This document shows, piece by piece, positions 1,900 through 62,853 of a stretch of DNA of 64,000 nt; the first letter of the stretch is position 1, and each line of letters begins with the position of its first letter. The DNA comes from Polytrichum commune (taxonomy: Eukaryota > Streptophyta > Polytrichopsida > Polytrichales > Polytrichaceae). The translations under genes and the position numbers were made by a program. The notes beneath the pieces are model-generated. The model was not told where the DNA came from and made no database searches. It saw only the letters and a list, made by a program, of their open reading frames with translations. The stretch spans positions 38,832,527 through 38,896,526 of the forward strand of contig OX485808.1 in the NCBI GenBank assembly GCA_950295325.1. The letters are read 5' to 3'.

Positions 1900-1947
<48 letters not shown>

Positions 1948-39164: not shown

Positions 39165-39192
39165 AACACGATATTAAACATTATGGGACTTT
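39165..39192 (+). repeat. Left terminal inverted repeat of the giant element
   Basis: A 28-bp end with blocks AACACG, ATATTAAACATT and GGGACTTT. It pairs with 62826-62853. Confidence 0.85.
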
Positions 39193-39242
39193 AGGGTAAT
39201 TTTGGGACATCTGTGATGCCAGTGGGGACCTCATACGCAACT

Positions 39243-39274
39243 CATTGGGAACTCATTGGGAACACATTGGGAAC
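39243..39274. repeat. Left subterminal repeats CATTGGGAAC x3
   Basis: Copies lie at 39243-39252, 39254-39263 and 39265-39274, 11 bp apart, about one helical turn. Inverted copies lie near the right end, so these are likely transposase-binding sites. Confidence 0.75.
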
Positions 39275-39552
39275 TCTTTAGGACAGGACAACACATGCGA
39301 GACGTATATTATGCTTTGAGTCCATTGGTTGTTTGCATTTGCCATGTGGGTGACCAATTTCATGAACACACCTGGGGGGTCCCAAGAAAGTGGCTTGCCT
39401 GATGATTTTACTAAACAAAAAGATATGATTATACAAGGAGGGAACTGCTCCCACAATGTCCTCCAATGAAACACTGCGTTTCTATGCTAGAAGATACGTA
39501 ATGTGTTGAGTATTGTCCTAAGTATAATGCATTTTAAATGGCTGAACTGGAA

Positions 39553-40425
39553 TTACTCTAAGTTTTTGAGCTGATTGTCCATGGACTCATAGATGTTTTC
39601 CAAATGAGGTTTGATTTCCAAAGATTGTTCCCACGCAACTTTCTCCATGTACATCAAGTCTGGGATTTTGCTCTCGATATAGCCCATTTGTTGAGAGTCA
39701 AACCCAATATGTTGTGCCGCAAGCACCACTCTCTCAAGGTTGTATATGCGATCGCTGAGCAAAAGACACTTCGTATATCTCTCTAGAGCAGTGGTCATAG
39801 TCGTTTGTAGCCTCATAAACTTATCCGTAACTTCATCAATCTCCTCTGCTAAGTGAATAAACTCGTCGGCAATTGTATGCTCTCCCATTGGGGGCTCGAC
39901 CAGACCCCCTTCCTCATGAGATGGTTGGTCCATCCGACATGCTTCCAACATTGGTGTGATTGGGAGGTTCTCCTCATTGTCATAGACATGGTTCACCATC
40001 GCCTCTGAATCAGGCTGGAGTAGGTCATGTAAATGAGGTTCGATTTCTTGTGTGCCTTCCCACATCTCGTTCTCCATTAAGTGCAAATCGGGTACACGTT
40101 GTTGGAGGAACTCCACTTGGGGGATGCTGAGCCCTATATTGATAGATGCATGCACCAATCTACCAAGCATGTGTGCATCCATTCCAACCAAGCGGCACCA
40201 TTGATATCTATCCAGAGCTGTAGTCATAGTCGTTTGTAGTTGCCAGAACCGCTCCGTGCACACATCAATATCATGGGCTAAGTTCTTAAACTCGTCGTCC
40301 ATACTTCGCACTTCTGTTGGGGCGTCCAGCGGGGCATCTGGAACAGCTGTTTGTAATCTCTGGATCCACTCCCCAAATCTAGATGGGCATGAGGGGGCTC
40401 GGGCAGGAGGAGCCTCCGTAATGTG
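39553..40425 (-). CDS. Exon 10: tandem duplicated helical module
   Basis: 290 residues. Two copies of a unit of about 90 residues lie at 40299-40030 and 39867-39601. Each runs DEFxxLAxxID...TxxFxxLQTTMTTALxRY and ends IPDLxxMExxxWExxxEIxPHL. It looks wholly alpha-helical, perhaps a coiled coil or four-helix scaffold. LQTTMTTAL is identical in both copies. No named family. It ends with TAA-type termination at 39553, about 360 bp from the element's left end. Confidence 0.6.
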   Translation of the reverse strand, partial: HITEAPPARAPSCPSRFGEWIQRLQTAVPDAPLDAPTEVRSMDDEFKNLAHDIDVCTERFWQLQTTMTTALDRYQWCRLVGMDAHMLGRLVHASINIGLSIPQVEFLQQRVPDLHLMENEMWEGTQEIEPHLHDLLQPDSEAMVNHVYDNEENLPITPMLEACRMDQPSHEEGGLVEPPMGEHTIADEFIHLAEEIDEVTDKFMRLQTTMTTALERYTKCLLLSDRIYNLERVVLAAQHIGFDSQQMGYIESKIPDLMYMEKVAWEQSLEIKPHLENIYESMDNQLKNLE

Positions 40426-43400
40426 CTGAGGACATTTGAAATATATGTACACGCGTGAATATTTGTGCAACAAACAATGGCAGCCTTACATATTGCATAC
40501 ATGGGGTCATGGGTTCATGGAAATGTTGAAGCAAGACATATATGAGATTTAGGATAGTCCAAGCCATCATGGAAATGTTGATGCAAGTCATATAGGTTAC
40601 ATACAATGGGTACATAGACATGCATATGATGGACGCAACTGCATTGGGTGGTGAATGTGTTTGGCCACCTTTTTATATTTTACATAATGCAGTAATGCAG
40701 TAGACAAGTATGAATGTCTGCACACATTTGGTATGGGAAGATTTAACTTCTACTATATTTAGGGTACAAACGGAATAGTTGTCCATCGGAATGGAGATTA
40801 TGGACAGTGGCTTCAAAAGGGGGGGTGACCATTGGCTGCCCAGTGAGAAGGGAAGTTGTCTTGGCTATGTCCGCTAGTCCAGCATGCAAGAGACGTGCAC
40901 CTCGTGAATTAGGTCCTCTTGATTCGATTAGAGCAATTTGATGCTCGCGGGTAGCTAGGGGACGGGGTATACGCATTGTTTCGCTAGGTGGTGTTGAACT
41001 GTCCAGTGGACCAGTCATATTGAGGTCAGCACCCTGCGCGTTGAAAAGGGGAAACGGCTCTGTAGTCGCGACTGCTTGAGGCACACAAGTCTTGCCAATG
41101 CCAGCCAATCCAGCACGCAACATTTGCACACCCCTTGAATTAGGGCCTCTTGATTCGATTAACGAAATTTGGTAATCGCGATTTGACCTGGTTGGGCGCA
41201 CGATTGACAACGTTTCAATAGGGGGTGCCGATTCTTCGACTTGGGGGATCATATTGAGGTCAACATTCTGCACGGTGACAACGGGACAAGCGTTGGGCCA
41301 ATTTACTACATTCCATTGTTATTGACATATACATCCATGCATATTCATATCCAATCTACTCAGTCATTCATGCAAATGAGCCTGCATTGAAAGTGGTGTG
41401 TAGAATATTACAAAACATTTACACAATAACATACTCCGTGTTCAAGCAGCGAGAATTGCCACAAAAATTACCAGATGGGAACCTTCAGTCGTTTGGGGGT
41501 GGTGGAAGAGATCAGAGTGAGTGCCCTTGACAACTGGATCCTCCAATGGATGATCCATTACTGATTTTTCTTGCACCACGACTTCATTGCGCAGATGGCC
41601 CGGTGTGGGGCACACGAAAGCAGATCGTGTGGAACTTGAGGGTGTGTATCCAGCAGGAGGAAACTGAAGATAGCATAAAATACAATGTTACATGGCATAT
41701 AATCCTAATTATGCTAGCTAGTTAGCCTAATTTTCTTTGCACAGGCTCTAAGGGTTGCAATGCGGGTTGATTGGGAAACTTGTTGGATTTCTGAATTGCC
41801 AGCTTGACTGCGTCGTTATGCCTGACAGGTTGCTGCCCAAATCTACGTCTTACCAAGAAATCGCGTGCGTCTGACATTGGTGAGTAGAACATACTTTGAA
41901 AGAAAGGTAGGAGAACCTTTGTCATGTCTGCATCGTCGACCCGGTTATTGGTGAAGGGACTGGGAAACAAACCACACTCGTCCGGATTACAAGCAGACTT
42001 GTAAGGGCAGTCATCTACAAGTATGGTGTTGGAAATTGTAGCAGTAATTCTCCCTTCATCAAGGGATATAGGTGGCCACCAAAACCTTGATGTCAAACTT
42101 TTGAAAAACAAGACAGATTGTGGCTTCAAAGGGTTCCTCACGACATTTCCCCACATATCCTTGAACGTGATGCAATCCTCTTGGCCGAGTACCATAGCGG
42201 GTTTTGGCATCCCAGCAAAAAGATAGTCCACCACAAGATCGACTGTAGATTTTTTCATGGAGGACCAAATGCAAAGATGGTACATTGTAGACATGCTCTC
42301 CCAAAATGTCTTGTATCCCAGTCTAGGGAGGACAACCTTGGGCCCTACCAATGCAGGTTCTTTGTCCAACGCACGATCTTGCATTATCCACGTAGGGATT
42401 GTTAACATATTCTTGAGACGGGGGGTACAGTGGCAAAATATGCCATTTAAATCGAACACCACAATGAACCTTCGACGGGGGACAGCAGCAGGCGCCTGCC
42501 GAAATGAATCCATGGTGAGCATCTTAAACTTACTACCATGAACTTAACAATTGAACTAAACTAAGCATGATATAGTTCACCAATGTATGACTTAGTTATA
42601 AATTGGTGGTAGGTCAATGCTGCAGACGATACGAAAGTGAAACCTAACAACAGTAATATGTGACCGAACCAATACCTCATAGCGTATCGGATTGAATTCC
42701 CATAGATCAGAAGATCCTAAGGAGGGATCTTCAGGATACTTAGACATTAGTCTTTTAGCACACGCGATTCCCATCTCCCTTGTAAATACTTGGAGAGGCC
42801 TATTGACCTTTGGGTAGGTGTCATCGTAAACAAAGAGCTTATCATAAACAAGATGTTTTGGTACAGGCGCATCCATAGCCGTGTTCGTACATTTGGGACC
42901 CTGAACCCAAAACTACGCGATGTAAAATTCGATGTGAGGGCAAAACTCTATACATAGATAGCTACATACATATGCAGTGTAGGCAGCGGGAAGTAGTCAG
43001 ATGTCGGGAACTTACATTGACATGACTAGGGACATTGTTGATGAGAGCTGCCCGCCGCTTGTCCTCATCTTGCTTATTGTGCATCGCTCGGAAATCATGT
43101 AGAGTGGTGTTGTCAAATCTGGGGTCGCCTTTGCTGTCGCCGAGTGGCCATCGTTGCAAATATCTCTTCACTGATTGTGGGACAATGTTGTCGGCTTGTG
43201 GACTTGCCGGATCTGTCGGGATGACTACCACAACAGACGTCGAAGGTAGACTTGTGACTTGTTGCAACTGGACTTGTGACTGAGAGGACTCCATTCCGCA
43301 AGGCTCAGGCTGAACGCAATGTACATTTCGGATGGGGTGTTCTTCCCCAACATTGGGCAGCAGATGTGAGGGGATCGATGCAACTGGGGACGGCGGAATA

Positions 43401-46400
43401 TCTGGAATAGATTCCGAGGGGTCCGAGAGTGGCGGGGGAGGCCGAGAAGCTACTGTGGCTATCGGTGCTTGGATGGGCCCAAGAATTGGCAAGGGTTCAT
43501 TGTTCCGAACATTGAACATTGGCGACGTTGGAAGAGGCATTACTGTAGACGGAAGAAGATCCACGTGCTCTAATATTGGCAAGGAAGCCTGTGAAGTCCA
43601 ACGGATCATTAAAGACCATAAAACATAAAATTGAAGTATGAAGGGAAATCATGACTTTATTCATAATAATGAGGCGCACATATTCCATCTTGCCTTCACA
43701 TTGAAGGCGGTCTACAGTGGCCTGAATGGGAAAAAGCCAAACTAAACTAAACTATTGATCTAAGGATGTGGCTTCATAGTTGATCACGAACGCTTCACAA
43801 TGGTGCGCCGTCTCGAACCTGGATCAAACATCCAGGTGGAGATTCAGTCACTTGTATAGAGGCATTCAAAGCGCTAAAACATTCGGAATGGATACTTACA
43901 TTAGTATCAGCCGTGGCGGGGGAGTCCACGGGAACCGTCGACGCTGCAATGGCAACCGCCGGCACATCCGCTTCCAATGTCGGAGCATCCATTTCCAATG
44001 TCGGAGCATCCACTTCTGATGTCGGGGCATCCACTTCCAACATCGGGGCATCAACGTTGAAGGATTTATCCACATCGACACCTTGCACGCCAATAGCTTG
44101 TTCAGCATGCACTAGTTCCACTCGATCGAGTGGGACTTCGGGCCGAGTGGATGTTGCGACATGCACGGAAGGTGTCGTCTGAGGCACTTGTTGGAGGGGC
44201 AGAACTTTGGCCTGAGACATCACTTCTTGAAACATACCTGAGAGCATCTGAGGCAACGTTTTGCTCAGAATGCCCACAATCTTGTCTTCCATCATTGATT
44301 CGGTGATGACAGGCTCCATCACCCTATGTTTGCGTCGTCTCCACTGCAGTTCCTTTGGGGGGGATCTACTGGAAACATGCCTACTCCTCGTGGATGTAGT
44401 AGGTTTTGATGAACTCGGGGGAGGAAGGTCTTGCCCGATATCATCTGAACTGGATGATCTCGAACTAGCTTCATGAAGTTCATCTATGTCCCCGCGGACA
44501 TCATTGCGATCATCCTCATGGTCGGAGTCGTGATCATCATCTTGATCGTCTTCTTGATCTTCTTCATCGCCCTCGTGCGCTTCGCGGTCGCCAACGGCAT
44601 GTCTTTCATTATCGTCTTCCTCCTCGTGTGGTTCTGCCGGATGTTCTCGGCGTTCTTCCAACGCATAGCCGAAGTCGAGGGCCTTGGCTCGCAAAGGGGA
44701 GGTTGGTAAATCAAGAGGGGAGGATTGAGGATCGTGCTCGCTATTTGCCTCATCGGTGTCCTGCTCGCTTGGTGCCTCCCGCTCGTCGTCATCATCTTCA
44801 GCCTCCTCGTAGTCGTCCCCATCAGAGACAGGGTTGTCGATATCCATATTATCGATGCCGACAACGGGAGAATATTGAATTGGGACATACTCCTGTGTTT
44901 AACCAAGAACGTTAGGCCATGCGAAGAATGTGGAAGGTCATGGAAAAACGACGAAGCTTCCACTCGATCGAGAGGAAATATAGAATGGCTTGAAAGAAAC
45001 TAAAGTATGTCCACAATGTATTTCCACTTGACTCGTGCAATAATGTAGACGTACCAGCAATTGAGGGGATTCATCTCGAATAGGTTGAATTAGCTCCTGT
45101 GCTCCGTAAGCATCAAAATGAGACTCATCCTCTTGAAAGTCAACGGCGCGAAGGGGACGAATATGTGCCAATTTGTCGCTAAACGTGTGCATGAAATTCG
45201 AATCCATGTACGAAAATACATTGTATTCGTTCATCTGCACACAAGTAATTCATTAGCAATCATAGAGAATGCACGGTTGAAAGCATGCCAATGAATGGAA
45301 GAGGTTGCGAAGAGAGGAGGTGCAATGAACTGACCAGTGCGGCAGCTATTGGCTTCAATCCTCCGAAGAAATTCAAGACCACTGCTCCCGAGCATCCCAG
45401 GTGGCTAAGGAATGTAAGATATGTTTCCATCCTCAGCTCGCCGCGACTCACTTCATAGCTCAACTCCGACCACTGCTTGGGACTCACAGTGTACCGTCGA
45501 GATTCCGGAGCTAACATTGGGCATGGGAAGACTTTGAACCTGGGTAGGAGCTTGGTTGTCAGAAAGTCGACATAAAGAGCCGGAGAAGTCCTCTTGCTGT
45601 CTACTTCCTTGCATGGTGGCAGATCCTCAGCGGGGCAGGGGAAATAGAATGATGGTACATTCACAAACGTGTCTGGATGCCTCCGACACAACATACATAT
45701 GAACTCAACTGCTGCTGGGTGGTTACGAAGATCCGATACAATCATCCAAGCAGGGACAATCTTAAGACCCGGGGACCATGCCGGATTGGTAATGTACTTC
45801 ACCAATGACTCCACGACTGAAGTGGACACCGGTTGGTCAACGCTGCCAGGGATAAATCTGAAGTCTATGAATCCACCACATATGTTGCTTTTACTTAACC
45901 ACTGGATATCGCTATTGTCTTGGTGAGGGATTACCAATTGCTTCTTGATTGAATTGTAATCTACCCAGCGTGTGATGACCTTCGAATTGCACTCCCGCAT
46001 GTCTGTTTGAAGCCAGTCGTGCAGCAATCGGTCGCATGCAGGGGGTGCCTCGAGGTACTTGTTGTTCGGCAAGCGCTTCTTATTGAGCCATGTATCACCC
46101 GCAACCTGGTAGAGCTTAACCCACTTTGCCTTTGTGATTCCGTGCTCCTTTTTGAACTTGATCCAAACGGCACGGTCCACGCAATCAAAACCCTCTGAAT
46201 CCTTTCCCCATATACCACGCTGTTTTGGATCGCGTGAAGACAACTCTTGAAGTAAGATATTCTTCCATTTCCTAAAGTTAGACCAGGACTTCAAGGTCGA
46301 AACTTTTGGATTCTTTGTCGTTCTCAGAGTCACTCTGGGAACATCCTCTCCATCCCTTACATCCAGTATACGTTGTGCACAAAGGAAGTAATCAGCCCGT

Positions 46401-48494
46401 GTTAGGCCGGCCATGTTTTTGAAGGTCTCCCTTGTTAGAGGTTTGCAAACATAGGGTTTTTCTTCAAATGCAAAAGGCGACTTTTTCTTTTCGTGACGGG
46501 CTCGCAGCTTCTGTTGAGCCTCCATGTAGTCATCCAGAAATGTATAGCCAGGCTTATCTGGATTCATGAGTGTGCCCTCTTCGTGAGCTATAAAAATCTT
46601 CCTCCACAATCTCGACGTCGGATCTGGAGCCATGATGAGGGTGAGCTCTGCATTCAGATCTGCATGAGTGATTCCTCTAGCTATGGCTGTGAAAGAGGCC
46701 TCCATGCTTGTTGTGAAATTCTGCCATGTCAAAATACAAGAATTGCTGAATGTCAATACAAGAACCAATATGAATGAAACAAACTTGCACCCTGGGGAGT
46801 TCCTCTCGATCGAGAGGAACCCTCTGCACCCTGGGAGTTCCTCTCGATCGAGAGGAACCCTCTGCACCCTGGGGAGTTCCTCTCGATCGAGAGGAACCCT
46901 CTGCACCCTGGGAGTTCCTCTCGATCGAGAGGAACCCTCTGCACCCTGGGAGTTCCTCTCGATCGAGAGGAGCCCTCTATGCACATGGGGGTTCAAGTAC
47001 ACAACATAGAACAATAAATTAGAAGTACATGATATGCCTTTACTACACGCTAAGCATATGAAGTGGAGGGCATACCTTCCAGGCCGTAGACATATTTGGA
47101 TCGAGTGATCCCTCAGCAGCATTGACTCGCTGCTTATGAGGCCTTCCCAATTTCACCCACACCCTGCGACAGTACATGATCTGGGTTGTCCATGTTGGAG
47201 TGAACTTGTTGAAAGAGTTCGAGTTATTTAAGGTGTACGAGAGTCGAACAGTCATGCTTGGATCGTCGCTCCAAACTATTGTGCACGGCCATACCTTCAA
47301 TTTCTCTCGCAATGAAGGCTCTGTATCTCTATGGCCTATTATCTGCCTTGATGCAGCAACGCTGTGCTGCCCGTTGATGATGACAAACTGACCGTCCTTA
47401 ATGTCATCCCACGTCATCCCTTCTCTCCATTTCTCCCCCTTCTTGAATTTGGGCATCAAACACAGATTGTGATGCGGCCAAGCCGGTGGCGTTTGAACGA
47501 GGTAGTTCTTCATAAGGGCTACCCCGGCATCATCCAGTGGACGAGTGACCTGATATGCTTTTGCGCTCGTCATTTTTTTTATATTAACCCGGAAGACTGC
47601 TTCGACCCCAAATGGATAGAGGTGTCCAAAAAGTTGAATGAACTTCTTGCGGTCCTTTGCTGCTTCTTCGAGACTGGGTTCCTCGCCATGCGTAATAACC
47701 CTCCCCTTCTCTGTTGCAGTTAGCACCAAGGGGGTGTCCTCCTCCGTTGATTTCATCTTCTTTGGCTTTGTCTTTCTATCTGGTGATGATCCTCTTTTGC
47801 CATACGCTTTGTTTTTCGCAGTCGGCGGCCTGTCCATATCGTCGCCTTCCATTGGCGCGGAGAAATGCACAATCTCACATCTTTTTTTTGACTTCCCCGT
47901 CTCAGTTGTGCCTCTCAAATCATCGTCGGCCGATTTCTGAGAGGCTTTCTTTGATTGCGGGGTCCTCGACCTGCTAGACCCTCCTTCATGTGTCCTTGAT
48001 TTCAGAACAGTCTCCGCCTGCTTCTTCTGCTTCATATATGATTCTTGTTCAGTGGCCAACTTCTCATTTATATCCCCTAGTGTCTCCAGTACAAAATTGA
48101 TCGCCTTCTTCGATACTCCAGATACCATGACCGTCTGAATTTCTTCCTTGTCCTTTGAAGGGAGCGCGGACATGGATTCTAAAAATGGCTCCAAGTGGAA
48201 TACATGTTTTTTGCAATCAAGGGACATTACTCTCACTTCGAGCCCCTCTTGCACTGAAATATCTAGCCTATCCTTAGAACCCACAGCAGCAATCGTTATA
48301 GGGTTGCCAGGATTTGGAATCCAGCTCTTGTCTATGCGATAAGCAAATGTTAACTGCATGGGGGACCTTTTGTCTTTTTGGTGAATTTGGAGTGACCAAT
48401 GTTTTAAATGTGTGTCCTTCACAGCCCAGTAGGGCCCATTCGGCCCTTCATGTAGAGTCCCTACAAGGTCACTCCACAGCACCTCCCTGTCCAT
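39553..48494 (-). CDS. Giant 10-exon gene for a ~2370-aa multidomain transposon protein
   Basis: Exons on the minus strand: 48494-47076, 46720-45335, 45234-45055, 44892-43819, 43588-43016, 42900-42676, 42495-41743, 41663-41472, 41267-40830, 40425-39553. Each has a GT donor and AG acceptor in the sequence, a length divisible by three and an open frame, so all nine introns are phase 0. Order of parts: basic linker; ParB-like INGQHS (about 373-378); a GGL methyltransferase-like motif at the exon 2/3 border; acidic and VDAPTLE repeats; proline-rich stretch; FCP1/HAD-like domain (DLNG at 1634-1637); duplicated ESRGPNSRG; duplicated helical module. The acceptor before ATG 48494 hints at a further 5' exon. 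The weakest joint is the exon 7 donor (CCT|GTGCAA). If it is not used, a stop at 41722 ends a protein of about 1876 aa, and exons 8-10 form a second gene. Confidence 0.7.
39601..39867 (-). repeat. Protein-level repeat unit 2 in exon 10
   Basis: Residues 187-275 of exon 10. Related to 40030-40299. Confidence 0.8.
40030..40299 (-). repeat. Protein-level repeat unit 1 in exon 10
   Basis: Residues 43-132 of exon 10. Related to 39601-39867. Confidence 0.8.
40830..41663 (-). CDS. Exons 8-9: duplicated ESRGPNSRG module
   Basis: Exon 8 (41663-41472) is a short linker FPPAGYTPSSSTRSAF.... Exon 9 (41267-40830) contains two copies of a unit of about 70 residues: DLNMxxxxxxSxPPxETxxIxRP, then QISLIESRGPNSRGVQMLRA and QIALIESRGPNSRGARLLHA. 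The ESRGPNSRG core is identical in both, so it is probably a functional peptide motif. I know no family for it. The in-frame donor ATG|GTCACC leads to exon 10. Confidence 0.55.
41743..42900 (-). CDS. Exons 6-7: FCP1/NIF-type HAD phosphatase-like domain
   Basis: Exon 6 is 42900-42676 and exon 7 starts at 42495. The intron between them is 180 bp (GAG|GTATTG to CGGCAG). Exon 7 shows HAD motif I as FIVVFDLNGIF, where FCP1/SCP enzymes have DxDx(T/V). The second Asp is Asn and the Thr is Ile. Motif II is IWSSMKKSTVDLVVDYLF. The C-terminal acidic motif is TILVDDCPYKSACNP. FCP1-family enzymes remove phosphates from proteins such as the RNA polymerase II tail. The changed motif I suggests a pseudo-phosphatase or binding module. 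Similar DLNG-type FCP1 domains are common in non-seed plant genomes, to my memory. A stop at 41722 would end the gene here if the last donor is not used. Confidence 0.8.
43016..43588 (-). CDS. Exon 5: proline-rich linker and short helix-rich end
   Basis: 191 codons. Pro/Ser-rich and probably disordered (RPPPPLSDPSESIPDIPPSP), then a more ordered end: VKRYLQRWPLGDSKGDPRFD and MHNKQDEDKRRAAL. No named family. It joins in frame to exon 6 through AAT|GTAAGT and an AG acceptor before GGTCCC. Confidence 0.6.
43819..44892 (-). CDS. Exon 4: acidic low-complexity and VDAPTLE repeats
   Basis: 358 codons. The first half is strongly acidic (DEEDQEDDQDDDHDSDHEDD and similar), then Ser-rich, then basic RRRKHR. 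The second half has four to five tandem 7-residue repeats VDAPTLE/VDAPTSE/MDAPTLE. The sequence is likely disordered and could be a chaperone-like or nuclear interaction region. A palindrome of the array-B type lies inside the coding sequence at 44116-44135, encoding VPLDRVEL. Donor CAG|GTTCGA. Confidence 0.65.
44116..44135. repeat. Palindrome inside exon 4
   Basis: TTCCACTCGATCGAGTGGGA, with one arm mismatch at the edge. It has the same core as the intronic arrays but lies in coding sequence. Confidence 0.85.
44958..44977. repeat. Hybrid palindrome in intron 3
   Basis: TTCCACTCGATCGAGAGGAA. The left arm is of the 48.6-kb array type and the right arm of the 46.8-kb array type, so perfect symmetry is lost by one base pair. 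Confidence 0.85.
45055..45234 (-). CDS. Exon 3 of the giant gene
   Basis: 60 codons between acceptor TGTGCAG and donor CTG|GTACGT. It continues the possible Rossmann-like fold from exon 2 with VFSYMDSNFMHTFSDKL, then an acidic DFQEDESHFD. No named family. The following intron (45054-44893) contains a hybrid palindrome at 44958-44977. Confidence 0.6.
45335..46720 (-). CDS. Exon 2: large unknown domain ending in a GGL motif
   Basis: 462 codons opening NFTTSMEASFTAIARG. The central part has many conserved-looking Trp, Cys and basic residues (SWSNFRKWKNILLQEL, RGIWGKDSEGFDCVD, HDWLQTDM). I recognise no named family. The last residues GAVVLNFFGGLKPIAAAL, joined to MNEYNVFSYMDSN in exon 3, recall motif I of Rossmann-type methyltransferases (hydrophobic strand, FxGxGG-like loop, then an acidic second strand end). 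This is a weak inference. Donor CTG|GTCAGT. Confidence 0.6.
46787..46979. repeat. Palindrome array A, 5 copies, in intron 1
   Basis: TTCCTCTCGATCGAGAGGAA occurs at 46800, 46838, 46877 and 46914, and with one end change at 46953. Copies are spaced 37-39 bp apart by CCCTCTGCACCCTGGG(G)AG. It lies wholly in the intron between exons 1 and 2 of the giant gene. Confidence 0.95.
47076..48494 (-). CDS. Exon 1: basic linker and ParB-like NGQHS region
   Basis: 473 codons. Residues 1-120 form a compact-looking region of unknown family. About 135-270 is charged, with coiled-coil character then Lys/Ser-rich stretches (KKRCE, KTKPKKMKS) that could be nuclear localisation signals. About 310-460 resembles the ParB/Srx-like nuclease fold: a strand-rich entry, DGQFVIINGQHSVAASRQI (the ParB signature is usually xGxHR), then WPCTIVWSDD and YCRRVWVKLGRP. 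In such folds the motif binds nucleotide or DNA. The call rests on motif style only. The donor AAG|GTATGC is good. The intron after it carries palindrome array 46787-46979. Confidence 0.65.
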
Positions 48495-48580
48495 CACCTG
48501 CAATGGGGATGGGAACAAAATCAATATATCAATGTGGGCATTTCAATTGAGAAATCATGTCGAAATCATGCGAAGGATAC

Positions 48581-49000
48581 TTCCACTCGATCGAGTGGAA
48601 GCTGCAATGTCAAAACATAGGCGTCCCCCATCATTATGCAATAAGCACTGGGAACTTCCACTCGATCGAGTGGAAGTTCCCAGTGCTAGGCCCACAGGCA
48701 GGCCGCCTAGGCATGCGCACATCCACTCGATCGAGTGGAAGTGCCAAGCGCATTGCGCACAGGCAGGCGGCCAAGCCATGCCCACTTCCACTCGATCGAG
48801 TGGAAGTTCCCAGTGCTAGGCCCACAGGCAGGCCGCCTAGGCATGCGCACATCCACTCGATCGAGTGGAAGTGCCAAGCGCATTGCGCACAGGCAGGCGG
48901 CCAAGCCATGCCCACTTCCACTCGATCGAGTGGAAGTGCCCAGGACATGGCCCACAGGCAGGTGGCCAAGCCATGGCCACTTCCACTCGATCGAGTGGAA
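48581..49000. repeat. Palindrome array B, 7 copies, in 5' intron or leader
   Basis: TTCCACTCGATCGAGTGGAA (some starting AT) lies at 48581, 48656, 48721, 48786, 48851, 48916 and 48981. Spacing is mostly 65 bp, and two spacer types alternate to form a 130-bp higher-order unit. It lies upstream of the ATG at 48494, before a good 3' splice site, so probably in a 5' intron. Confidence 0.95.
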
Positions 49001-49859
49001 GTTGTTAGGGTTATGGGTTAGGTTCTTTTCGTCCGTACAATACGGAGGGCTCATGATGGCTTTTATGCCTATTATTAGTGTGGGGTAAGGTAAATTTTAT
49101 CAACAATTGCTGCCCCCTTGCATGTCTTTCAGATCATGTTTAGTCAATGAAATTGTGCATTGACATATGTAATTGAAGTTTCTTTTCTTCTATGGACATT
49201 GCAAACAATTCAGCTAACTTGGAAGATAGCATAAAATTTTGTAAAGAACTTGCATCCAATGCAAACCAATGCAGACCAGACTAATGCAAACCAATTGCAT
49301 CCAATGCAAGCCAATGCAACCCAAACCAATTCAAATCAAACCAATTCAAAGCAAACCAAATCAATCCAATTGCATCCAATTCAACCATTCTGGAGAAGAT
49401 GTGCTTCAAAGAATGGGCTTCTACATGCACTTCAATTCAGAGTAGGAATTCATAACCTAATTCATGATAACGCCACCAGCTTCGAGTATACATTGAATTC
49501 AGAGTAGCAATTGAGAGTTCATTGACTTATAGAAGTTGAATTTGGGAGTCAGAAGTATGCATTCAGAACTTATAGTTCAAATGTTTAGGATCAACTGCAT
49601 TCACTAAAAGAAGTTCAGATGTTTGTTCAGAAGTATGCATTAACAACTTTTAAGTTCAGAAGTTTTAAGTGCACAATATTTATTGGTTTGCATTGTTTTG
49701 CAGAGTTTAGAAGTTCAGAAGTTAAGTTCTGAAGTTAACTTTAAGTTCAGATGTTAACTTTACGTTCAGAAGTTTAATTGCACAATATTTAGTTCAAAAG
49801 TAGTTCAGATTGTTTAAGTTAGAATGTTCAAGTGCAAATGTTTAAGTTCAGATGTTTAA
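49001..49859. other. Non-coding leader/intron with simple motifs
   Basis: At 49250-49390 there are many CCAATGCAAACC-like and CCAATTCAAACC-like repeats. At 49560-49860 there are many AAGTTCAGAAGTT-like repeats. No coding signal. Probably a 5' intron of the giant gene. Confidence 0.5.
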
Positions 49860-50010
49860 GTGCAAAATGGAATGAATTGCAAGCATTGGAAATCACACCA
49901 AGCAAAATGCACTGAATTGGAAGCAACATGTACTGAATTGCAAGCAAAATGCAATGAATTGGAAGCAACATGCAATGAATTGGAAACCTACCACAAGTCT
50001 CAAGCTGTAA
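49860..50010 (+). repeat. 21-bp tandem repeat with coiled-coil coding potential
   Basis: About five copies of a unit like TGCAATGAATTGGAAGCAACA. The plus strand encodes CTELEAT/CTELQAK/CNELEAT/CNELET in a frame that runs 49860-50387. The frame downstream has no family signature and overlaps the presumed leader of the minus-strand gene, so I do not call it a gene. Confidence 0.7.
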
Positions 50011-50303: not shown

Positions 50304-50311
50304 CTTTATAA
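50304..50311 (-). promoter_or_regulatory. Candidate TATA box for the giant minus-strand gene
   Basis: The minus strand reads CCTTATAAAGGACGCG here. It is followed downstream by a pyrimidine-rich leader (CTCCCTCTCTTCTCTTTTCC) and a possible donor CTCCAG|GTGTGC at 50088. This would place the start near 50280. It is the nearest good TATA upstream of the ATG at 48494. Confidence 0.4.
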
Positions 50312-53008: not shown

Positions 53009-53029
53009 TTTAGGGTTTAGGGTTTAGGG
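53009..53029 (+). repeat. Interstitial telomere-like repeats (TTTAGGG)3
   Basis: Three exact plant-type telomere units followed by TTTAAG. An inverted block (CCCTAAA)4 lies 3.1 kb away at 56108-56135. Confidence 0.9.
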
Positions 53030-53588
53030 TTTAAGATTCTATAGCCAACTTGGACGACATTGAGTATCAGTGAATAGCTTATCATTTGGCTTTGCAACAT
53101 ACCTTCTTACGACCAAGGGAATATGACATTTTGCATATGAATATAACACGCAATGTAGTTAGTTCTGTTTAAGGAAAATTAAAAGGTTTGACCTACGCAA
53201 TTTATCTTATTGATTGCATGCATCACATGACATGCGTCATTTATTATGATGGATCATCATCAAGCAGGGTCAATGGGTAGACTCGACTCAAAACCTTTTG
53301 ACGTAATTACCTTTTGAGGTATACCTTTTGAGATTTGAGTCATCACGTCCAAAGGTTTGAGTAATCCCACGATTTTTAATATACTTGATTATAAATCTTT
53401 TTATTCTAATATAGGTGCAAACTTGGGTGCACATTGCTTCATGACTTAGAACAATCATTTCATGATGCCACATGTACATTTGAGGAACCAATTACTACCA
53501 CATTGGTCGGGGAGGTAGTAATTGGCGTCTCAAGAATCCTTGTGGCATCATGAATTGATAGTTCTAAATCAATTACTACACAATTGAA

Positions 53589-53732
53589 TCATGATTGATT
53601 GAGAAAGCAAATGTAGTTTAGAGCAATCAATTCATGATTGATTGAGTCGCCAATTGTAGTTTAGAACAATCAATTTATGATTGATTGAGAAACCAATTGT
53701 AGTTTAGAACAATCAATTCATGATAGGTTGAC
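53589..53732. repeat. 43-bp tandem repeat, about 3.3 copies
   Basis: Units start at 53589, 53632 and 53675 (partial at 53718). Each carries TCATGATTGATTGAGxxxCC and GTAGTTTAGARCAATCAAT. Confidence 0.9.
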
Positions 53733-53883
53733 CAACTCTGAAATATATTGCCATAATTTGACATTACTACATGTATGTCCAAGTGGCATCATGAATTCAT
53801 TGTTCTAAATCAACTACGTCGTCTCTTAGCGTTGTGCTGACATTATAATGTCGGTGGGTTGTGTGAGTGTTTACATTACTACA

Positions 53884-54147
53884 TAAGAAGAAAAGAAAAA
53901 ATAACACCGTAATCTTTATACCGGCGTGAATGCCCCTCCGTTAGCCTTGCATTGACCACAGTGTACCGTAATGCAGTATAAGGTGATTTGCCTCCGTGGG
54001 GAGGTGGGCGCTAGTGTAATATTAAGTATATCTAACCTTTCTAAGGCGGGGGGATGGGTGTTTGTTTGTTATCTAGTTTCCGTTGTTTTAGAACCAAGTA
54101 TGTGAGGTATTTACTTGATTATAAACCCATTGTTTTGTATGGTGTTT
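53884..54147 (-). mobile_element. 5'-truncated LINE copy (3' end only)
   Basis: This stretch matches the 3' end of the LINE at 16384-16650: the AAGAAAAGAAAAAATA tail, CCGTTAG, GGTGGGC, and TGTTTGTTATCTAGTTT(C/T) followed by GTATGTGAG.TATTT. Strong 5' truncation is typical of LINE copies. ATTACTAC occurs at both edges and may be the target duplication. It sits inside the giant element's spacer, so it came later than the giant element. Confidence 0.8.
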
Positions 54148-54198
54148 ATGAACCAATTACTACCACATGTACATTTGAGGAACCAATTACTACCCACC
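54148..54198. repeat. Direct repeat of a spacer block
   Basis: CATGTACATTTGAGGAACCA followed by ATTACTACC at about 54166-54195 also occurs at about 53468-53497. Confidence 0.8.
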
Positions 54199-54228
54199 AG
54201 AGCTGGCATCCGAACCTCCCCGGAGCCG

Positions 54229-54310
54229 CATCGAACTCCGCGCCGGAGTTAAGACGTTTGGGTTGGGTAATGTTATCCGCGACAGTTTGGGTACCTTTCC
54301 GCTATCACGT
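54229..54310 (+). pseudogene. 5S rRNA-like fragment
   Basis: CATCGAACTCCG, then GTTAAGACGTTTGGG, then GTTTGGGTACCT resemble, in order, the conserved plant 5S rRNA blocks CATCAGAACTCCG, GTTAAGCGTGCTTGGG (internal promoter box A) and GATGGGTGACCT. There is a 4-base insertion between the first two. The 5' part of 5S is not clear. It may be a pseudogene or the 5S-derived head of a SINE. It lies just beside the truncated LINE copy. Confidence 0.35.
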
Positions 54311-56107
54311 AGTAGTTTAGGGTCATCTTGGACCATGACAACTATTTTTGAGCACCTATACTTATCATGTTTTTTCAATTTATCTCAAAGGTCGGATTTC
54401 ACGCTTTGTTGCAAATTTTTGAAAATAAATTCAAATTAAGTTAGTACCATTATTGGCTGTGGATATGTATACATTGTTGCCAACTATCGATCCGGTTATT
54501 ATGTAGTTATGAACTGAAGGTATCCACGAGTGTACATCAAATTCAATCACCAATCATTGTGGATATCCATAAAATATAAGGATCTAAATTAACATTGTAA
54601 TTACGGACTCTTGAAGGAAGTTTGGGTGGGACGGGAATGGAAACCCAAACTATGGTCAAGAGGCCGTCGGTTTTTTTTCATTAAAAAATCAATCATTGAC
54701 AAAATCTTGGCCGTTAGATTGAAGGGGTTATTTTGAGCAGGGAATTATAAAGTTGGATGCTCCTCTGGGTACGGACTTTGGGCTTGGCCTTTGGAGGCTT
54801 CACACTATCTTCGGCCCAAGGCTCCACTTATTATATTTTATTGGCTATTTTCAGTTCATTTCCTTGGACTCTCAACAAAGTTTGGCCACTCAATCTCAAG
54901 GCCTCTCGACTTGGACAGTCATAGTGTGAAGCAGCCCTCAATAGTGCATACCATCATGAACAACTAACCAACAAATCCAACTATTCGTTAACTAGTTGCC
55001 TTTCGTAGCTATAGTTGTTTGCGATTTGACCTGCCAAAAAAGCTTGTTAACTAAACATGAGCGCAACATGTTCACATGATTTTCTTGTGATGTTGTAGTG
55101 TCACTAGTGTGTTATTTGTGTTGGTGGTGTACATGGAGGTTGTTTCGGAGCCCAACATTGTGAGTAATCGTATCAAGGCATGAGTCACTGGTCCGAGCAT
55201 ATTGAAGACCCTTAACTGAAGCAAATCAAGAGGCAAACTTCTTCAAATATATAATAATACTTTAAAATTTTCTAATTAACTATAGTTGGTCCCTAACATA
55301 TATTGAGAAAATCTTACATAACTATAGTTATTTTGGCAGTTGTCCAAGGGTTTCAATAGTGTAAATGACTCAGAATTGAAAACAACAACAATTTTTGTAA
55401 TTACTTTATGATGTGAAACTTTACCAAGATGTGGAACCACCAGATATTGGTTTAAAGAAATGTTTCTAACCTCGGGTATGAAATAGATTATTTTCAAACA
55501 AACAAAAGTGTAACATGAAATTTTTGGATTTTCATAGTTTTCACCCGCAAAGTAGGAAAAATTGGTACCCATCCAACATGATAGGACCTCCGGCTCATGC
55601 TATCATGATGGTGCTTCTAGTAGACGTTGAAGGTGAAGGTTTGGAGGCCTTAGGCTAATGCACGTCAACTAGCTCAAGGGCATGCTTTCATGTGTTGACC
55701 ATTCAATGGCAAGGCTAATTACTTAGACTTTGTCAATATTAGTCCCATATTGACAAAGCTTAAATTGGTTTCTATGTCTAAGCATCGTGTTCGTTGAGCG
55801 CTTTCATGTAGAGTAAGGAGGTCCTACAAAGGCCAACATATGAGGAAAAATGTGTTTTTCTTTGTCAAGCATGCAAGTTGGAATGTGAATGTCACCGCAA
55901 TTGAATGTTACATGAGTGGTTGCAAATTTTATTTTATTTTAAGTTTTTCTTAAGTCTATATTTTGTAGTTGTATATAAAAAGAAAACAAACCCAAACGTT
56001 ATGAATGTTGGGGCTTGCCACTAGTAGAATACCATATGCTTCATTCTCCCAAATGAATGTGAGGCTTGCCACTTGGCAACCTCGTGTATAATAACAACAT
56101 TGCGACT
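54311..56107. other. Decayed spacer; MITE-like pair
   Basis: No coding signature. A MITE-like pair of ends lies at about 54796-54945. Confidence 0.4.
54796..54945. mobile_element. Harbinger-family MITE-like copy
   Basis: GGCTTCACACTATCTTCGG at the left and inverted GGGCTGCTTCACACTATGAC at the right match over GCTTCACACTAT. I found no clean target duplication. Related in style to the ends at 21611 and 25670. Confidence 0.45.
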
Positions 56108-56135
56108 CCCCTAAACCCTAAACCCTAAACCCTAA
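56108..56135 (-). repeat. Interstitial telomere-like repeats (CCCTAAA)4
   Basis: Four exact units, in the orientation opposite to 53009-53029. Confidence 0.9.
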
Positions 56136-57221
56136 AACCAAGTACTACACTAACTATGTGTTATGTTTCTTAATCAACGAACATTTCTTCAAAGTCAATC
56201 TAATGCGTTGCTAAATTCCTCTGCATCTTAATTAGTGGGCCATCACAAGTTTGGCCCTCAATGCACCTAAATTATAGGTTTCACTTTCACATTCCACCCT
56301 TGTTTCCGATCATGCGTAAACAACGGAAGGAATGAATGAGGAAGTTCGCAAGTGCAAAACCATAGGGGACCAATTCCCAACCAAAGGTGGATTTCAGTAA
56401 AAGGAAGACACCATCTATTAGCATGCCACTTGTCATGCGTTAAGGTCACATTTTGGAACAATTTTCACCTCGTCATTTGCCCAATACACGTAAAAACTCT
56501 AAACGTCGACCTGTATATTACATGCCATAGACAATTTTCAAATTTATGGTATTTTTTTCTACATATAGTACATCACCAATGATATTATCTTTTTTATATT
56601 CTATGAAAATTTTCATCGCCTTTGTTTTTTGTAATAATGTTTTTAGTTCAATCGTGTGTCTAAGACATTCTAGTTAGAAACAATGTTTAAAAAAAAAAAA
56701 AAAATCATCAAATTTTACCAATTTTCATTTCAAATTTCAAATTTCCCCGTGCAATACCAGTGCACACCGTATAAAACGCTATGTTCTTCATTTTCAAAAA
56801 AATTGAGTAATAAATTGAGTTATCTCTATAAATTGAGTCATTCTATAAGCCTTACTCATGATTCTATATGTTATTCTTTACCTACTTCCAACCTCCACCA
56901 TTTATAGAGTTGACTGCATTTAATCTTGGCCCACATGCGTTTACTAGTACACCGCCATTAATGTCATCTAAAAATCTTCGATAAATTTGATGGTCCTACC
57001 GACGGGGGGTAAACTAAGACACTTGTCAGCAAATGAGTGGATGGACTTCTCCCGTGGACCACGTACCACATCAGCTTGCTATACTATCATTCTGTACTAC
57101 AGAACCTTGCCAAACGATAATTTGTCCTTCAAGATAGGACCTTGTACAATAGGGAGGGAAGCTTTAAATTTTCTGTACAGGATCGTGTCTGCAATCTCCC
57201 ACCAAATTAGCTGTCGACTAG
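56136..57221. other. Non-coding spacer upstream of the transposase-like gene
   Basis: AT-rich without coding signature. It probably contains upstream control sequence for the promoter at 57222. Confidence 0.35.
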
Positions 57222-57229
57222 TATAAAAG
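57222..57229 (+). promoter_or_regulatory. Candidate TATA box for the transposase-like gene
   Basis: TATAAAAG in the context CTAGTATAAAAGGCTCATG, a textbook plant TATA box. A transcript starting about 30 bp downstream would have a leader that includes palindrome array C before the coding exon at 59040. Confidence 0.5.
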
Positions 57230-57462
57230 GCTCATGTCTCTAAGCTCATTGTCTTCACTCACTCTTGGAAAGCCCCCTCAAATCTCTGCGTTTCTTGCCG
57301 TTGCCTCCCACTCTAGAGTACCTCTCTTTGACTTGCAGTTCAATACAGTGCTGGACTCGCTTTGCTGTTGGATTTGCTCTCCACCCATCCGTACAACTGT
57401 ACGGATATCAATGAACGATATTGTTCCAGACGATGTTGTTCCAGACGATATTGTGCCACGCG

Positions 57463-58045
57463 GATCCACTCGATCGAGTGGATCCTCCTAGAGCAAGGGG
57501 ATCTTGTAGGACAGGATCCACTCGATCGAGTGGATCCTCCTAGAGCAAGGGGATCTTGTAGGAGAGGATCCACTCGGTCGAGTGGATCCTCCTAGAGCAA
57601 GGGGATCCTATAGGAGAGGATCCACTCGATCGAGTGGATCCTCCTAGAGCAAGGGGATCTTGTAGGAGAGGATCCACTCGGTCGAGTGGATCCTCCTAGA
57701 GCAAGGGGATCCTTTAGGAGAGGATCCACTCGGTCGAGTGGATCCTCTAGAGCAAGGGGATCCTCTAGGAGAATCCTCTCCTAGGTGAATCCCCGTTCTC
57801 TCCTAAGACATTTTGCGCTTTTTGCATTCTCCTAGACATTCATTTTACGTGTTCGAGAATGTCACCTGACTTTGGATTCGAGGGTGTCAAATGAAATTTG
57901 TCAAGCATACACACTGCCAAGGGGTCCACTAGGAAAGGATCCACTCGATCGAGTGGATCCCCATACCAAGGGGATCCTCTAGGAGGGGATCCACTCGATC
58001 GAGGATCCTCTTATACCAAGGGGATCCACTCGATCGAGTGGATCT
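57463..58045. repeat. Palindrome array C, about 9 copies, in the 5' leader region
   Basis: CCACTCGATCGAGTGG, extended by GAT and ATC to a BamHI-like border on each side, recurs about every 60 bp with spacers CTCCTAGAGCAAGGGGATC. Some copies have CTCGGTCGAG at the centre. One (near 57987) has lost part of its right arm. It lies about 235 bp downstream of the TATA box. Confidence 0.9.
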
Positions 58046-58148
58046 TAGGGGTACTCTGTTAGGACACTTCTACGGCCCACTTCGAAACCCTAGGCATCAA
58101 CAAATACGTGGGCCTAGATTGCCCAAATGCGCCCTAATGTGGGCCCAA

Positions 58149-58266
58149 GGGCTTTATATTAAAAGTCGGTCCAAGGGCTATATGTGGGTCCAAGGACTTT
58201 AGTTCTAGCAATTGCAAATTCATTTAAGCTCCTGGGCCGTGGATTGGGCCTCAATATAAAGCCCCT
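58149..58266. mobile_element. Small inverted-repeat element inside array C
   Basis: GGGCTTTATATTAAAAGTC at the left and inverted GGGCTTTATATTGAGGCCC at the right match over 13 bases. I see no clear target duplication. It appears to split array C into 57463-58045 and 58430-58765. Confidence 0.4.
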
Positions 58267-58429
58267 AGGCCCATTTGCAAGGCCCACTCAACGGTCCACT
58301 GTAAAGTAGGGCTAATGTTTAGGCCCACTTCCAAGTCCAAGTGGGCTAAACTCGAAGTGGGCTAAACGCCAATTGTGCCCTAATAGAAAGTGCCCCTTAT
58401 ACCAAGGGATCTTGGAGGGGATCCAGTTG

Positions 58430-58765
58430 ATGGAGTGGATCCTCGCCCATGAGGTGAAACCTATAGGTGAGGATCCAGTCGGTCGAGTGGTTCCTAGCCA
58501 CCAAGTGAATCCTCCAGAAGAGGATCCACTGGATCCTCTCCACTAAGTGGATCCTCTAGGATTAAATGGGACACGTTCCTCTCAAGAGATCCTCGCCACC
58601 AAGTGGATCCTCTAAGAGGATACACGAATAAAATCTATACCAAGGGGATTTTCTCCAAGAGGATCCACTCGACCGAGTGGATCCTCTTGGAGAAGGGAAT
58701 CATGTAGGAGGATCCAAGACATCGACTGGATCATCTTGGAGATATCCCCTCGATCGAGTGGATCC
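58430..58765. repeat. Degenerate continuation of palindrome array C
   Basis: Imperfect copies of the array-C unit (CTCGACCGAG near 58665, CTCGATCGAG near 58750, GTCGGTCGAG near 58470). They are more mutated than the copies before 58045. Confidence 0.75.
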
Positions 58766-59039: not shown

Positions 59040-62000
59040 ATGGAGCAAATGGATACAGGCTCTGCTAATACGGATGAGGTATAATGTCATCCCACATTGC
59101 TTTCATATACCCGTATCTTGCAATATCGTTTGATTATTTGAACATGTATTAACTTCAGTTCAATACAGGAATTATCTCTTTCTGAGGCAGTATTCACGGA
59201 AGAAGAAATCGAAGTTGGTGGCGAGGATATTGATGTGCAATGCAGTGGGCTTCAAAGGGAGCAGTGGGTGAACATTCCAGTGATGCTTGTGAATGTACAT
59301 GGAGAAAATGTGGCAAAGGGAATTTGTCGTAATGTCAATCCAATGGATTGTGTAGAGGACAAATGCCTTGGACCAGATCACGTTGGGGTCCTTATTATGG
59401 AACCAATCGAGGGTATGATGGACATGGGATCGATGTTCTCATTGAGAATGTGGCCAATATCTGGAGTTTTCCACCAGAGATATACACTTGCATACCATCT
59501 TCATGTGGGCGCATGGAGGTCCCGTGCGCAAACCAAATTGCTAGAGAAACGAAGGAACGAAGGGAAGAGGGCATATGTCTCATCCCGTACATCCTTACAT
59601 ACCAAACCGACGAAAAAATCGCAAATACTTGATAATGCTAGTATCTGTCAGCTTTCCGCAATTGTTTGTTGCGATCGAGAGTGCACTAGGTATTTTCCTA
59701 GGGATGAGGCTCTGAAACTGCGAACCGAGTTTTATAGTTGTTCAAGCCGCATGAGACATGCCAAACAACTCGAGGTCCATGGACAATTACATGCACTTCC
59801 GGGCAACTTCAGGAATGTTGTCACTTTGAGTGGTCGCAATGTATGTGAAAAAGCATGGAGACACATTTTTGCAATTTCAAAAACAACATTCTACAGAAAC
59901 CGGTCAGAATTCAAGTGTGGCATGCGTCCACGCGACCATGGGAATCTAAACATGAAACGGAATCGAACATCCACCCAACAAGCTACTGCCACTCTTTCAA
60001 CACTACTGGAAGATAAAGCCGACATGATGCCTCATAAGGCCCGCACTTTGCCAAATGGTACTCGTGTTGTTGAAATGGTCTTGCCTCGCGGGACAAAATG
60101 GAAGAAATTTTTGGTCACCATCAATGACGTAAGCATATGATATAGTTGTTCTCACCGCTTGGTGTAAATACTTGTCAGTATACCTAGAACGAATGACTTA
60201 TTGTGAAAGTACCAATGAGACTTGAATTGGTCTTCATATGAGGTGTTGGTTATTCACCTGGCAATTTTATGAATCTGGTTATTGATGAATTGGTTATTTA
60301 TCTGGCAATTTTGCAGGTCAACGACAAATGCGGTTTGCAACCAATTTCACTCTCAACCCTGAGCAAAATACGGAATAACTACTTTAAACACTATGTGATG
60401 AAAAGGGTTGGTGACAATTTTGCTCGTTGTGGAAAGTGTGATTCGCTTTCGGCCATTATTCTTCAACATGTCAAAGGTTCAGCTGCCCACACTGGGTTTT
60501 CAAAACAGTTGGCGAGGCACCAAGCGCAGCAAGAATCTGCACGCAATGCGTACCGTTGCATGAGGGCTCTTTCAATTGAACACCCCACAAAGGTGTTGAC
60601 TATCATTCATGACAAAATGGACCATGGCAAAACTGCGTCTCCATGCTTTGCTTCCAAGAACAAAGACACCGACATGTTTACAAAATTACCACTTTCTGTA
60701 ACAGGAATGATGGCCCATGGACATGGAGATGAGAGATATGCTCACTATGCTCTGGATATGTACCCTGGAGATTGCAACCATACTGTAGGTTCATTCGCGA
60801 GACTTCTCCGTGATTTGGAGGAATCTCCAATATCATCATCTCGCAATCTATTCAAGGGTTCGGGCCGGTCACCTCTTTATCGTGCTATTCTTCATGGGAG
60901 TGATGTATGTTTGGAAGGATTACGAGCTCCACCAACGGAGCCCATCCCAGCTATTCCCCTTCCACCTGTTCTGCATGTTCAACTTGATAATTGCTGGAAG
61001 GACAACAAGTGCAGGTTTGTAAAGGCATTTTGGTCTCTGCTCACGGCGAAGAGAATATTCATGGAGGTACATGTGTCTTACCTGTTGGTTGGTCATACAC
61101 ATGATGATATCGATGCATCATTTGGAAGATGGAGCATGGACCTACGTGAACATGATTACCCCACTATCCCCCTCCTCATGAAATCGTACATGGATATGGA
61201 AAAAGTTCCAGTTATTCCGCATATGATCGAGGAACTTCCGGACTGGAGGGCCTTTGTTGGTGATCATATTCCCAATGGTAACAACAAACTCATTGGGCAC
61301 ACAAAGGCCCAACAGTTCAAATTTTATGTCCGAGATGATGGTTGGCCTGTTATGCAGTACAAAGTCCTCAGCACGCACGAGGAGTGGTTGCCCAAAGATG
61401 GTATATTGATGTGGAAATCCAATATAAAAGGGGAGCCATGTCTCCCATCCGGGGACCCTTCTCCTGCACAACCTCGAGGTATGGCCAAGCTTGAGGATGT
61501 TCTTGTCGGTCTCCAAGGGTTTATTGACTATTGGCAATCAATATGTGACCATGACACGACTGGAGCATATATGGGTTCACACATGCATATCTTGCAATAT
61601 TGGATAGGGGTGAAGGAGGCATTGGAAACACATCTCACAAACGTGTACACTGTCGGCTTGCCATTAGCTGAGGGATTCTGGCCACGGAGTACAGTCCAAT
61701 CAGATGCACATCCGTTCTCGCATAATGGAGAGCTTCGGGAAGAGCACCAGCCGGATGACCATTATGTTGGTCCAGCAAACCTTCGTCCCGCACCTGCTTT
61801 CCGCATCGCCGATAATGTACATGAAGGGCATTTACTAATATTGCGTCCCCAAGAACAAGATATAGTACGACCCATTTGGGTTTGCCGTGCGTTGTCTCCA
61901 CCCAACTTGGATGTCACGGGAGAGCATCCACGCCAAATTCTTGTACAATGGTTCACTCCCACTTCAACTGCCAGAGACCTATCAAAGAAATGGAGTGGGT

Positions 62001-62299
62001 GGGACTCAAACCCCAACTTCAAGTGGAAACGTGACTCGAAATACTCCATTCCTGACTGGCAACCAATCGATTGCATTTTGGCAGCTTGGCCTCTGCCAGA
62101 ACATCAAGATGTTGAGCCCTTAAGGGTTACTATTCCACCAGAGCAAATTGGATTTGCCAAAGATAATCTTCGACGTTGTTCAACAGCAGAGCGTGGACGG
62201 AGGGTGGTTGAGGTGGACGTCGTGGACTCTAGTGCGCCTCAAGGTTGCCATGGACATGCAACAGGCAAACGACCATCTAGTGGACGCACTTTGCGGTGA
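59040..62299 (+). CDS. Putative DDE transposase, DUF7869-like, 3 exons, 993 aa
   Basis: Exons 59040-59078, 59169-60128 and 60317-62299, each with GT/AG borders and all introns phase 0. The first exon is only 13 codons (MEQMDTGSANTDE). The middle exon has a CC..ECTRYF cluster and LSGRNVCEKAWRHIFAISKT, a stretch typical of the N-terminal part of DUF7869 proteins. The last exon has IIHDKMDHG (D432), HVQLDNCWKDNK (D557) and VGHTHDDIDASF (His593, Asp597, D599). The QLDN...NK and VGHTHxDID blocks define DUF7869-type proteins, which I judge to be RNase H-fold transposases. D432/D557/D599 are my candidate catalytic residues (inferred). The frame has no stop. The gene lies divergently from the giant gene, and its stop is about 530 bp from the right end, as expected for the enzyme that moves this element. 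Confidence 0.8.
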
Positions 62300-62703
62300 T
62301 AAAAAAAACAGGGTTAACAAGCATGGTGGTTGGATCTAGACGAAACAAACTTGCTTTGTATAGATTGTAGGGGCTAGTGAGGTCCAATTTTGACAAATGA
62401 AATATTTTTTGTTCAAACTCCAACAGGAGCATTACGTGCGTACTGCCAGAAATGGCATACCCACATGTGTGGTGTAGACACAACGTTAATGTAAGGCTTC
62501 TCAAAAAATTACCAGATGCATTTGTCCACGTGTAATGTGTAATGTTGTATAATATGCCAACCAATAATTTAATATTATCAATATTCTATGTACTAAGAGG
62601 TGTGCATGATGCATGTTATGGAGGCATGCATGGATGCAAACATTACCACAATTAATTGTTCCCATATCCATGACTCACCAATGCCCATTTGTCACGCAAA
62701 GCA
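62300..62703. other. 3' flank of the transposase-like gene
   Basis: Non-coding. It should hold the 3' UTR and polyadenylation signals, but I could not pick a unique site. Confidence 0.35.
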
Positions 62704-62787
62704 CGTTCCCTTGTCCTCATAGGTGTTCCCGGCCGTGTTCCCATTGTTCCCATTCATGTTCCCAATGACGTTCCCGTGTTCCCAATG
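62704..62787. repeat. Right subterminal repeats GTTCCC(AATG)
   Basis: About seven GTTCCC motifs. Full GTTCCCAATG copies lie at 62758-62767 and 62778-62787. These are the inverse of the left subterminal CATTGGGAAC repeats. Confidence 0.75.
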
Positions 62788-62825
62788 GGCAACAGTACAC
62801 ATGTTTTTCAATTTTGGGACACTAA

Positions 62826-62853
62826 AAAGTCCCGAAATGTTTAATATAGTGTT
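62826..62853 (-). repeat. Right terminal inverted repeat of the giant element
   Basis: Pairs with 39165-39192 at 25 of 28 positions. TAAG follows at 62854-62857. Confidence 0.85.

Follow-up and report, generated by a model that had tools for sequence, protein, structure and literature searches.

What kind of mobile DNA is the insert of 23,689 bp (approximately 23.7 kb) that interrupts a decayed Ty3/gypsy integrase region in the window (the 64-kb stretch of DNA analysed here), and which of its proteins might move it? The insert, read from one copy at positions 39165-62853, is a DNA transposon, as the initial annotation had proposed from its ends, a 4-bp duplication and a restored empty site: the insertion is real, its boundaries are exact, and the support comes from the ends, the 4-bp duplication, a frame that locally spans the empty site, and a gene product that resembles a transposase. 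The ends (AACAC..GTGTT), said to match in inverted orientation at 25 of 28 bases, do so exactly (Table 1). No other inverted 28-mer pairing of the two 2-kb end regions is as good: the other diagonals reach at most 21/28, and 60 base-shuffles never exceeded 21/28, which leads to rejection of chance as the origin of the terminal inverted repeats (TIRs). The flanking TAAG is present on both sides as a duplication of 4 bp; comparisons of 5 to 8 bases contain mismatches, and longer duplications do not fit. Inverted subterminal repeats had been noticed inside both ends, and the strand bias of GGGAAC bears this out: within 300 bp of the ends it occurs four times forward and never in reverse on the left, and eight times in reverse and never forward on the right (mirror symmetry at 12 of 12 sites); the interior (23.1 kb) has nine occurrences and the flanks (40.3 kb) have 21. 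The longer form CATTGGGAAC is found three times forward in the left 300 bp, twice in reverse in the right 300 bp, nowhere in the interior and once in the flanks.

When the flanks are joined with one TAAG, a single frame crosses the gypsy site (..VDDLALPYDSRFRKFPGKF..), and an integrase zinc-binding domain (PF17921, E 2.8e-9) adjoins the site in the right flank on the same strand. The gypsy copy contains stops and frame changes at 420 nt or less from the site, and therefore what is restored is a local frame and not an intact integrase; the earlier claim of a restored integrase frame holds for the former but not the latter.

Table 1. Positions of the features of the transposon within the window.
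Feature	Position	Strand	Basis and remarks
Left target duplication	39161-39164	none	Sequence; TAAG
Left terminal inverted repeat	39165-39192	+	Sequence; 28 bp, 25/28 to right end
Left subterminal repeats	39243-39274	+	Three CATTGGGAAC, 11-bp spacing; fourth GGGAAC at 39440
Open frame	39553-40485	-	Internal duplication; Occludin_ELL E 0.0096, under its cut-off; no convincing family
Open frame	40743-41318	-	Internal duplication; no family
FCP1/NIF-type HAD phosphatase-like open frame	41722-42543	-	PF03031, E 8.1e-11
Further open frames	42592-42912, 42962-43648, 43795-44898	-	No family
Large left gene, inferred exon 2	45263-46720	-	3' limit provisional; contains GAVVLNFFGGLKPIAAAL
Five palindromes of GTTCCTCTCGATCGAGAGGAAC type	46799-46973		Inside inferred left-gene intron; 4 with symmetric arms, 1 with one mismatch
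Large left gene, inferred exon 1	47076-48494	-	Contains VIINGQHSVAAS
Seven palindromes of CTTCCACTCGATCGAGTGGAAG type	48580-49003		5 with symmetric arms, 2 with one mismatch
Eleven palindrome family members of GATCCACTCGATCGAGTGGATC type	57462-58764		9 with symmetric arms, 2 with broken arms
Candidate transposase gene, exon 1	59040-59078	+	Inferred; no homology covers this exon
Candidate transposase gene, exon 2	59169-60128	+	Homology and exon joining
Candidate transposase gene, exon 3	60317-62299	+	DUF7869 (PF25273, E 1.1e-40); candidate triad D/D/D
Right subterminal repeats	62658-62783	-	Eight GGGAAC, all reverse, two being CATTGGGAAC
Right terminal inverted repeat	62826-62853	-	Sequence; 28 bp
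Right target duplication	62854-62857	none	Sequence; TAAG

The protein most likely to be the enzyme that moves the element, judging from its sequence, is predicted from the right-hand gene on the forward strand, where three inferred exons with GT-AG junctions join into a frame of 993 aa with its sole stop at the end. One Pfam family was found in it, DUF7869, at 139.7 bits against a Pfam cut-off of 26 bits. This family is listed in Pfam as a domain of unknown function and no mention of it was found in the literature searched; what sets the present member apart is that its gene sits inside the ends of a transposon with a target duplication. Position is the only tie between DUF7869 and the element. 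The initial annotation had described the genes of the element as divergent and intact, which is correct for this uninterrupted frame, whereas the left-hand genes show long open exons and their gene models are partial. A similarity of the DUF7869 protein to UBR1 (E 0.06) is non-significant.

Relatives of the protein were sought by a motif scan of GTDB species genomes, which yielded three contigs (L001, L002, L003), all three of which match DUF7869 by Pfam. L001, binned with an uncultured Synechococcales metagenome-assembled genome (MAG), has an uninterrupted frame of 963 aa (890-3781) to which the 993-aa protein aligns nearly end to end, with 40% identity over 939 columns. The two genes differ at 411, 350 and 595 of 893 codons at the first, second and third positions, respectively, which is the pattern expected for a protein under constraint; an uninterrupted frame for this protein is thus conserved in another organism. 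L002 and L003 come from bins labelled Bacteroidetes and are more distant than L001, and the coding pieces of L003 are interrupted by a stop or intron. All three are probably mis-binned eukaryotic contigs that contaminate MAG bins, and no proven transposon ends are seen on L001. A tblastn search of phage and plasmid records with DUF7869 gave no match at E≤0.1, and scans of IMG/VR with DUF7869, or with DUF7869 plus ParB-like DNA motifs, gave no relative; four IMG/VR loci (L004-L007) were rejected as matching by motif only, with DUF7869 tblastn E values of 0.091 or worse.

Three acidic positions recur in these alignments, in IIHD, QLDN and HTHDDID of the window protein, in MHD, QMDN and HTHDDID at the corresponding places in L001, and in ISD, QID and HTHEDID of L002 and two pieces of L003, from which we infer that DUF7869 is a D/D/D(E) transposase with a conserved candidate triad. 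In RNase-H-type transposases the acidic residues come in the order strand end, later strand end, helix. A five-row AlphaFold model of low confidence (mean pLDDT 43.7) follows this order, with the first aspartate closing a strand, the second closing a later one and the third in the helix after the next strand; a single-sequence model of the protein is poor (pLDDT 35.6). A Foldseek search of the PDB with the five-row model gave no match at E≤0.001, and among the matches listed (50 of 205) there was no DDE transposase or integrase, one of them being the IS21 helper ATPase IstB. With a mean pLDDT of 43.7 and no PDB match at that threshold, the RNase-H fold is putative, as is catalysis by DUF7869.

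With catalysis by DUF7869 putative, there is room for another account, in which the element is non-autonomous, carries DUF7869 as a passenger and depends on a different transposase acting in trans; for giant gene-carrying elements of Ectocarpus, described in PMC12477816, movement in trans is presumed. We consider this account improbable: among the long proteins of the element, DUF7869 alone gave a homologue in the scans made, and it is uninterrupted, retains a D/D/D(E) triad that is plausible and can be aligned with its relative over nearly the whole length, whereas the left-hand genes have no relative in the scans of IMG/VR, phage and plasmid records. Movement of the element by its own DUF7869 protein is the reading preferred here.

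Dense subterminal repeats are usual in CACTA elements, and the right end of the element, AACACTATATT, has the string CACTA two bases in. Both traits would suit a CACTA/EnSpm transposon with a short TIR, and its size class would suit one as well: complete plant CACTA elements usually exceed 10 kb and some exceed 20 kb in the account given by PMC10741241. The same paper gives CACTA elements a 3-bp target duplication, next to CACTA/CACTG ends, whereas the triplets outside CACGA and CACTA in the window are GAA and TTT, and it is outside AACAC that 4 bp match exactly; nor was any CACTA transposase family found in the ten ORFs of the element scanned with Pfam. A CACTA/EnSpm identity is rejected because the length of the duplication is wrong (4 bp versus 3 bp), and we regard it as extremely improbable. 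Ginger elements, for which PMC10741241 gives duplications of 4-6 bp, 5'-TG...CA-3' ends and TIRs of 40-270 bp, accommodate the 4-bp TAAG, but are rejected because the ends here are AACAC..GTGTT and the TIR is 28 bp long; a gypsy-like integrase was not found among the same ten ORFs, which are the longer ones of the element.

The likeliest home of the element would be Sola1, on account of its 4-bp duplication, its D/D/D(E) triad and its resemblance to one described element. Sola transposons, as outlined in PMC10741241 and PMC9033089, have 4-bp target duplications, TIRs of 11-1124 bp (PMC10741241) and a DDD transposase, exceed 15 kb in some cases, and are present in the moss Physcomitrella. The window element agrees in its 4-bp duplication and in its 28-bp TIR (within a range so wide that it excludes little); its conserved D/D/D(E) positions would suit a DDD transposase. 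The closest published object found, compared by description, is Sola1-1_Ec32 of Ectocarpus, an element of 21.5 kb that, according to PMC12477816, carries a gene with ParB-like and N4C/N6A methyltransferase parts on the strand opposite the transposase. The likeness, known from that description, comprises giant size (21.5 versus 23.7 kb), an accessory gene opposite the transposase, ParB-like and methyltransferase-like parts of that gene (read by eye here) and the 4-bp duplication that PMC10741241 gives for Sola. The window element differs in its additional phosphatase frame of NIF type, in its arrays of palindromes, and in that its methyltransferase-like part seems, by eye, to be catalytically degenerate. 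A refinement of the preferred reading, by analogy, would thus make the element a giant Sola1 with the known kind of ParB/DNA-methyltransferase accessory gene, in a land plant; its ParB and methyltransferase parts were read by eye and gained no profile support, and we put this at about an even chance. The initial annotation, which assigned no superfamily and singled out no transposase, had called the element far larger than usual cut-and-paste elements in plants, which is fair, but such sizes are already on record in the papers cited above (CACTA over 20 kb; Sola1 at 21.5 kb), and 23.7 kb alone is not unprecedented.

The accessory block is a run of long open frames on the reverse strand, from 48.5 to 39.5 kb. 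In the large left gene, GAVVLNFFGGLKPIAAAL resembles motif I of DNA methyltransferases and VIINGQHSVAAS resembles ParB-type domains by eye, and the methyltransferase-like part looks catalytically degenerate by the same means. Searches of Pfam, NCBIfam, PHROGs, the PDB, phages and plasmids gave these readings no support, and they serve as leads only. The scores of this gene in Pfam (CDC45, 0.31; HNF-1_N, 0.51; AAA_lid_4, 0.13) and its other weak matches (PHROGs DNA ligase, 0.26; HSP70, 0.26 and 0.2; antibody light chains, 0.17) are non-significant; tblastn of its first exon against phage and plasmid records gave no match at E≤1, and the IMG/VR scans gave no relative of the gene. The first motif of HAD phosphatases is DxD. 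In the phosphatase-like frame it reads DLNG, which suggests that the protein may be catalytically altered; a sequence search of the PDB with this frame gave no match at E≤0.01. The opposite-strand genes are presumed to be accessory, with probably regulatory or anti-silencing roles. The approximately 8 kb between the divergent genes (49000-57400) has one frame of at least 150 aa wholly within it (49860-50387) and several tandem repeats, and may hold nested insertions. Short arrays of CCCTAAA (4 copies, 56109-56136) and GTTTAGG (3.7 copies, 53008-53033), which we take to resemble plant telomere repeats, occur in the same interval. Elsewhere in the window, frames that overlap on the minus strand and contain reverse transcriptase and RNase H domains (16554-21618) are LINE-like, and an open frame at 8919-9530 has a TIR domain (PF13676, E 2.1e-11). 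Together with the gypsy copy and the CCCTAAA array, these flanking frames point to a plant host, perhaps a non-flowering land plant.

The element also contains a family of palindromes with the exact core CTCGATCGAG in 21 copies and variants of it in four, so that CTCG[AG][TC]CGAG occurs 25 times, always inside the element and never in the 40.3 kb of the window outside it. Among simulated elements, 29 of 30 lacked the core and one had two. The 6-nt arms are perfectly symmetric in 18 of the 25 copies, as GATCCA/TGGATC (nine), CTTCCA/TGGAAG (five) or GTTCCT/AGGAAC (four), and the three types thus differ by paired changes; arms are imperfect in the other seven copies, one of which has no symmetry at all, and the core is off-centre in four. 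Two copies lie at 44.1 and 45.0 kb, five are in the inferred intron of the left gene, and 18 are upstream of the start codons of the two main genes, approximately 0.09-0.5 kb from the inferred ATG of the left gene (48580-49003) and 0.3-1.6 kb from that of the candidate transposase (57462-58764), where four of the nine symmetric-arm copies have CTCGGTCGAG or CTCGACCGAG as the core. Tandem duplication accounts for much of the number of palindromes, which form about five clusters. Upstream of the left gene, 48644-48687 is a perfect palindrome of 44 bp; it holds CACTGGGAAC, a string close to the subterminal motif CATTGGGAAC, together with the mirror of that string. Perfect palindromes of 24 bp (27435-27458) and 22 bp (23420-23441) outside the element lack the CTCGATCGAG core.

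A palindrome family, AGTTTAGCTCGAGTCGAGCTAAACT, flanks the DUF7869 gene of L001 on either side (235, 733, 3817, 4192, 4272), always outside the coding frame; with up to 8 mismatches allowed there are five sites, as against 0.02 on average and never more than 1 in 100 simulations. The half-site CTCGA/TCGAG is common to the palindromes of L001 and the window, a likeness noticed post hoc. The arm types with paired changes, the clusters upstream of the main genes and in the intron, and the analogous family in L001 are grounds for a speculative proposal, more probably wrong than right by a wide margin, that DUF7869 transposons carry dispersed palindromic operator-like or partition-like sites which, when read by the ParB-like protein of the element or by its transposase, tie together expression, marking and synapsis. 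In such a system, a protein of the element would bind the palindromes.

The account that we consider very probable as a whole is that of a giant, autonomous-looking cut-and-paste transposon moved by its own DUF7869 D/D/D(E) transposase with a 4-bp stagger, and carrying an opposite-strand accessory block; the comparable opposite-strand layout of the published giant Sola1, as described in PMC12477816, counts in its favour. The DUF7869 protein would recognize the 28-bp ends together with the subterminal GGGAAC repeats that mirror each other, cut at the ends and excise the element; integration at a 4-bp stagger would produce the TAAG duplication within the resident gypsy element; and the left-hand proteins (ParB/methyltransferase-like, phosphatase-like and others) may regulate or protect the element. 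Because DUF7869 lies in a transposon whose ends are defined and whose empty site can be read, a transposase role is directly testable, with the 28-bp end as the substrate, and the palindrome is a concrete candidate binding site. Giant transposons with accessory genes of a ParB/methyltransferase-like kind are reported in algae, and the element suggests that land plants may harbour them as well.
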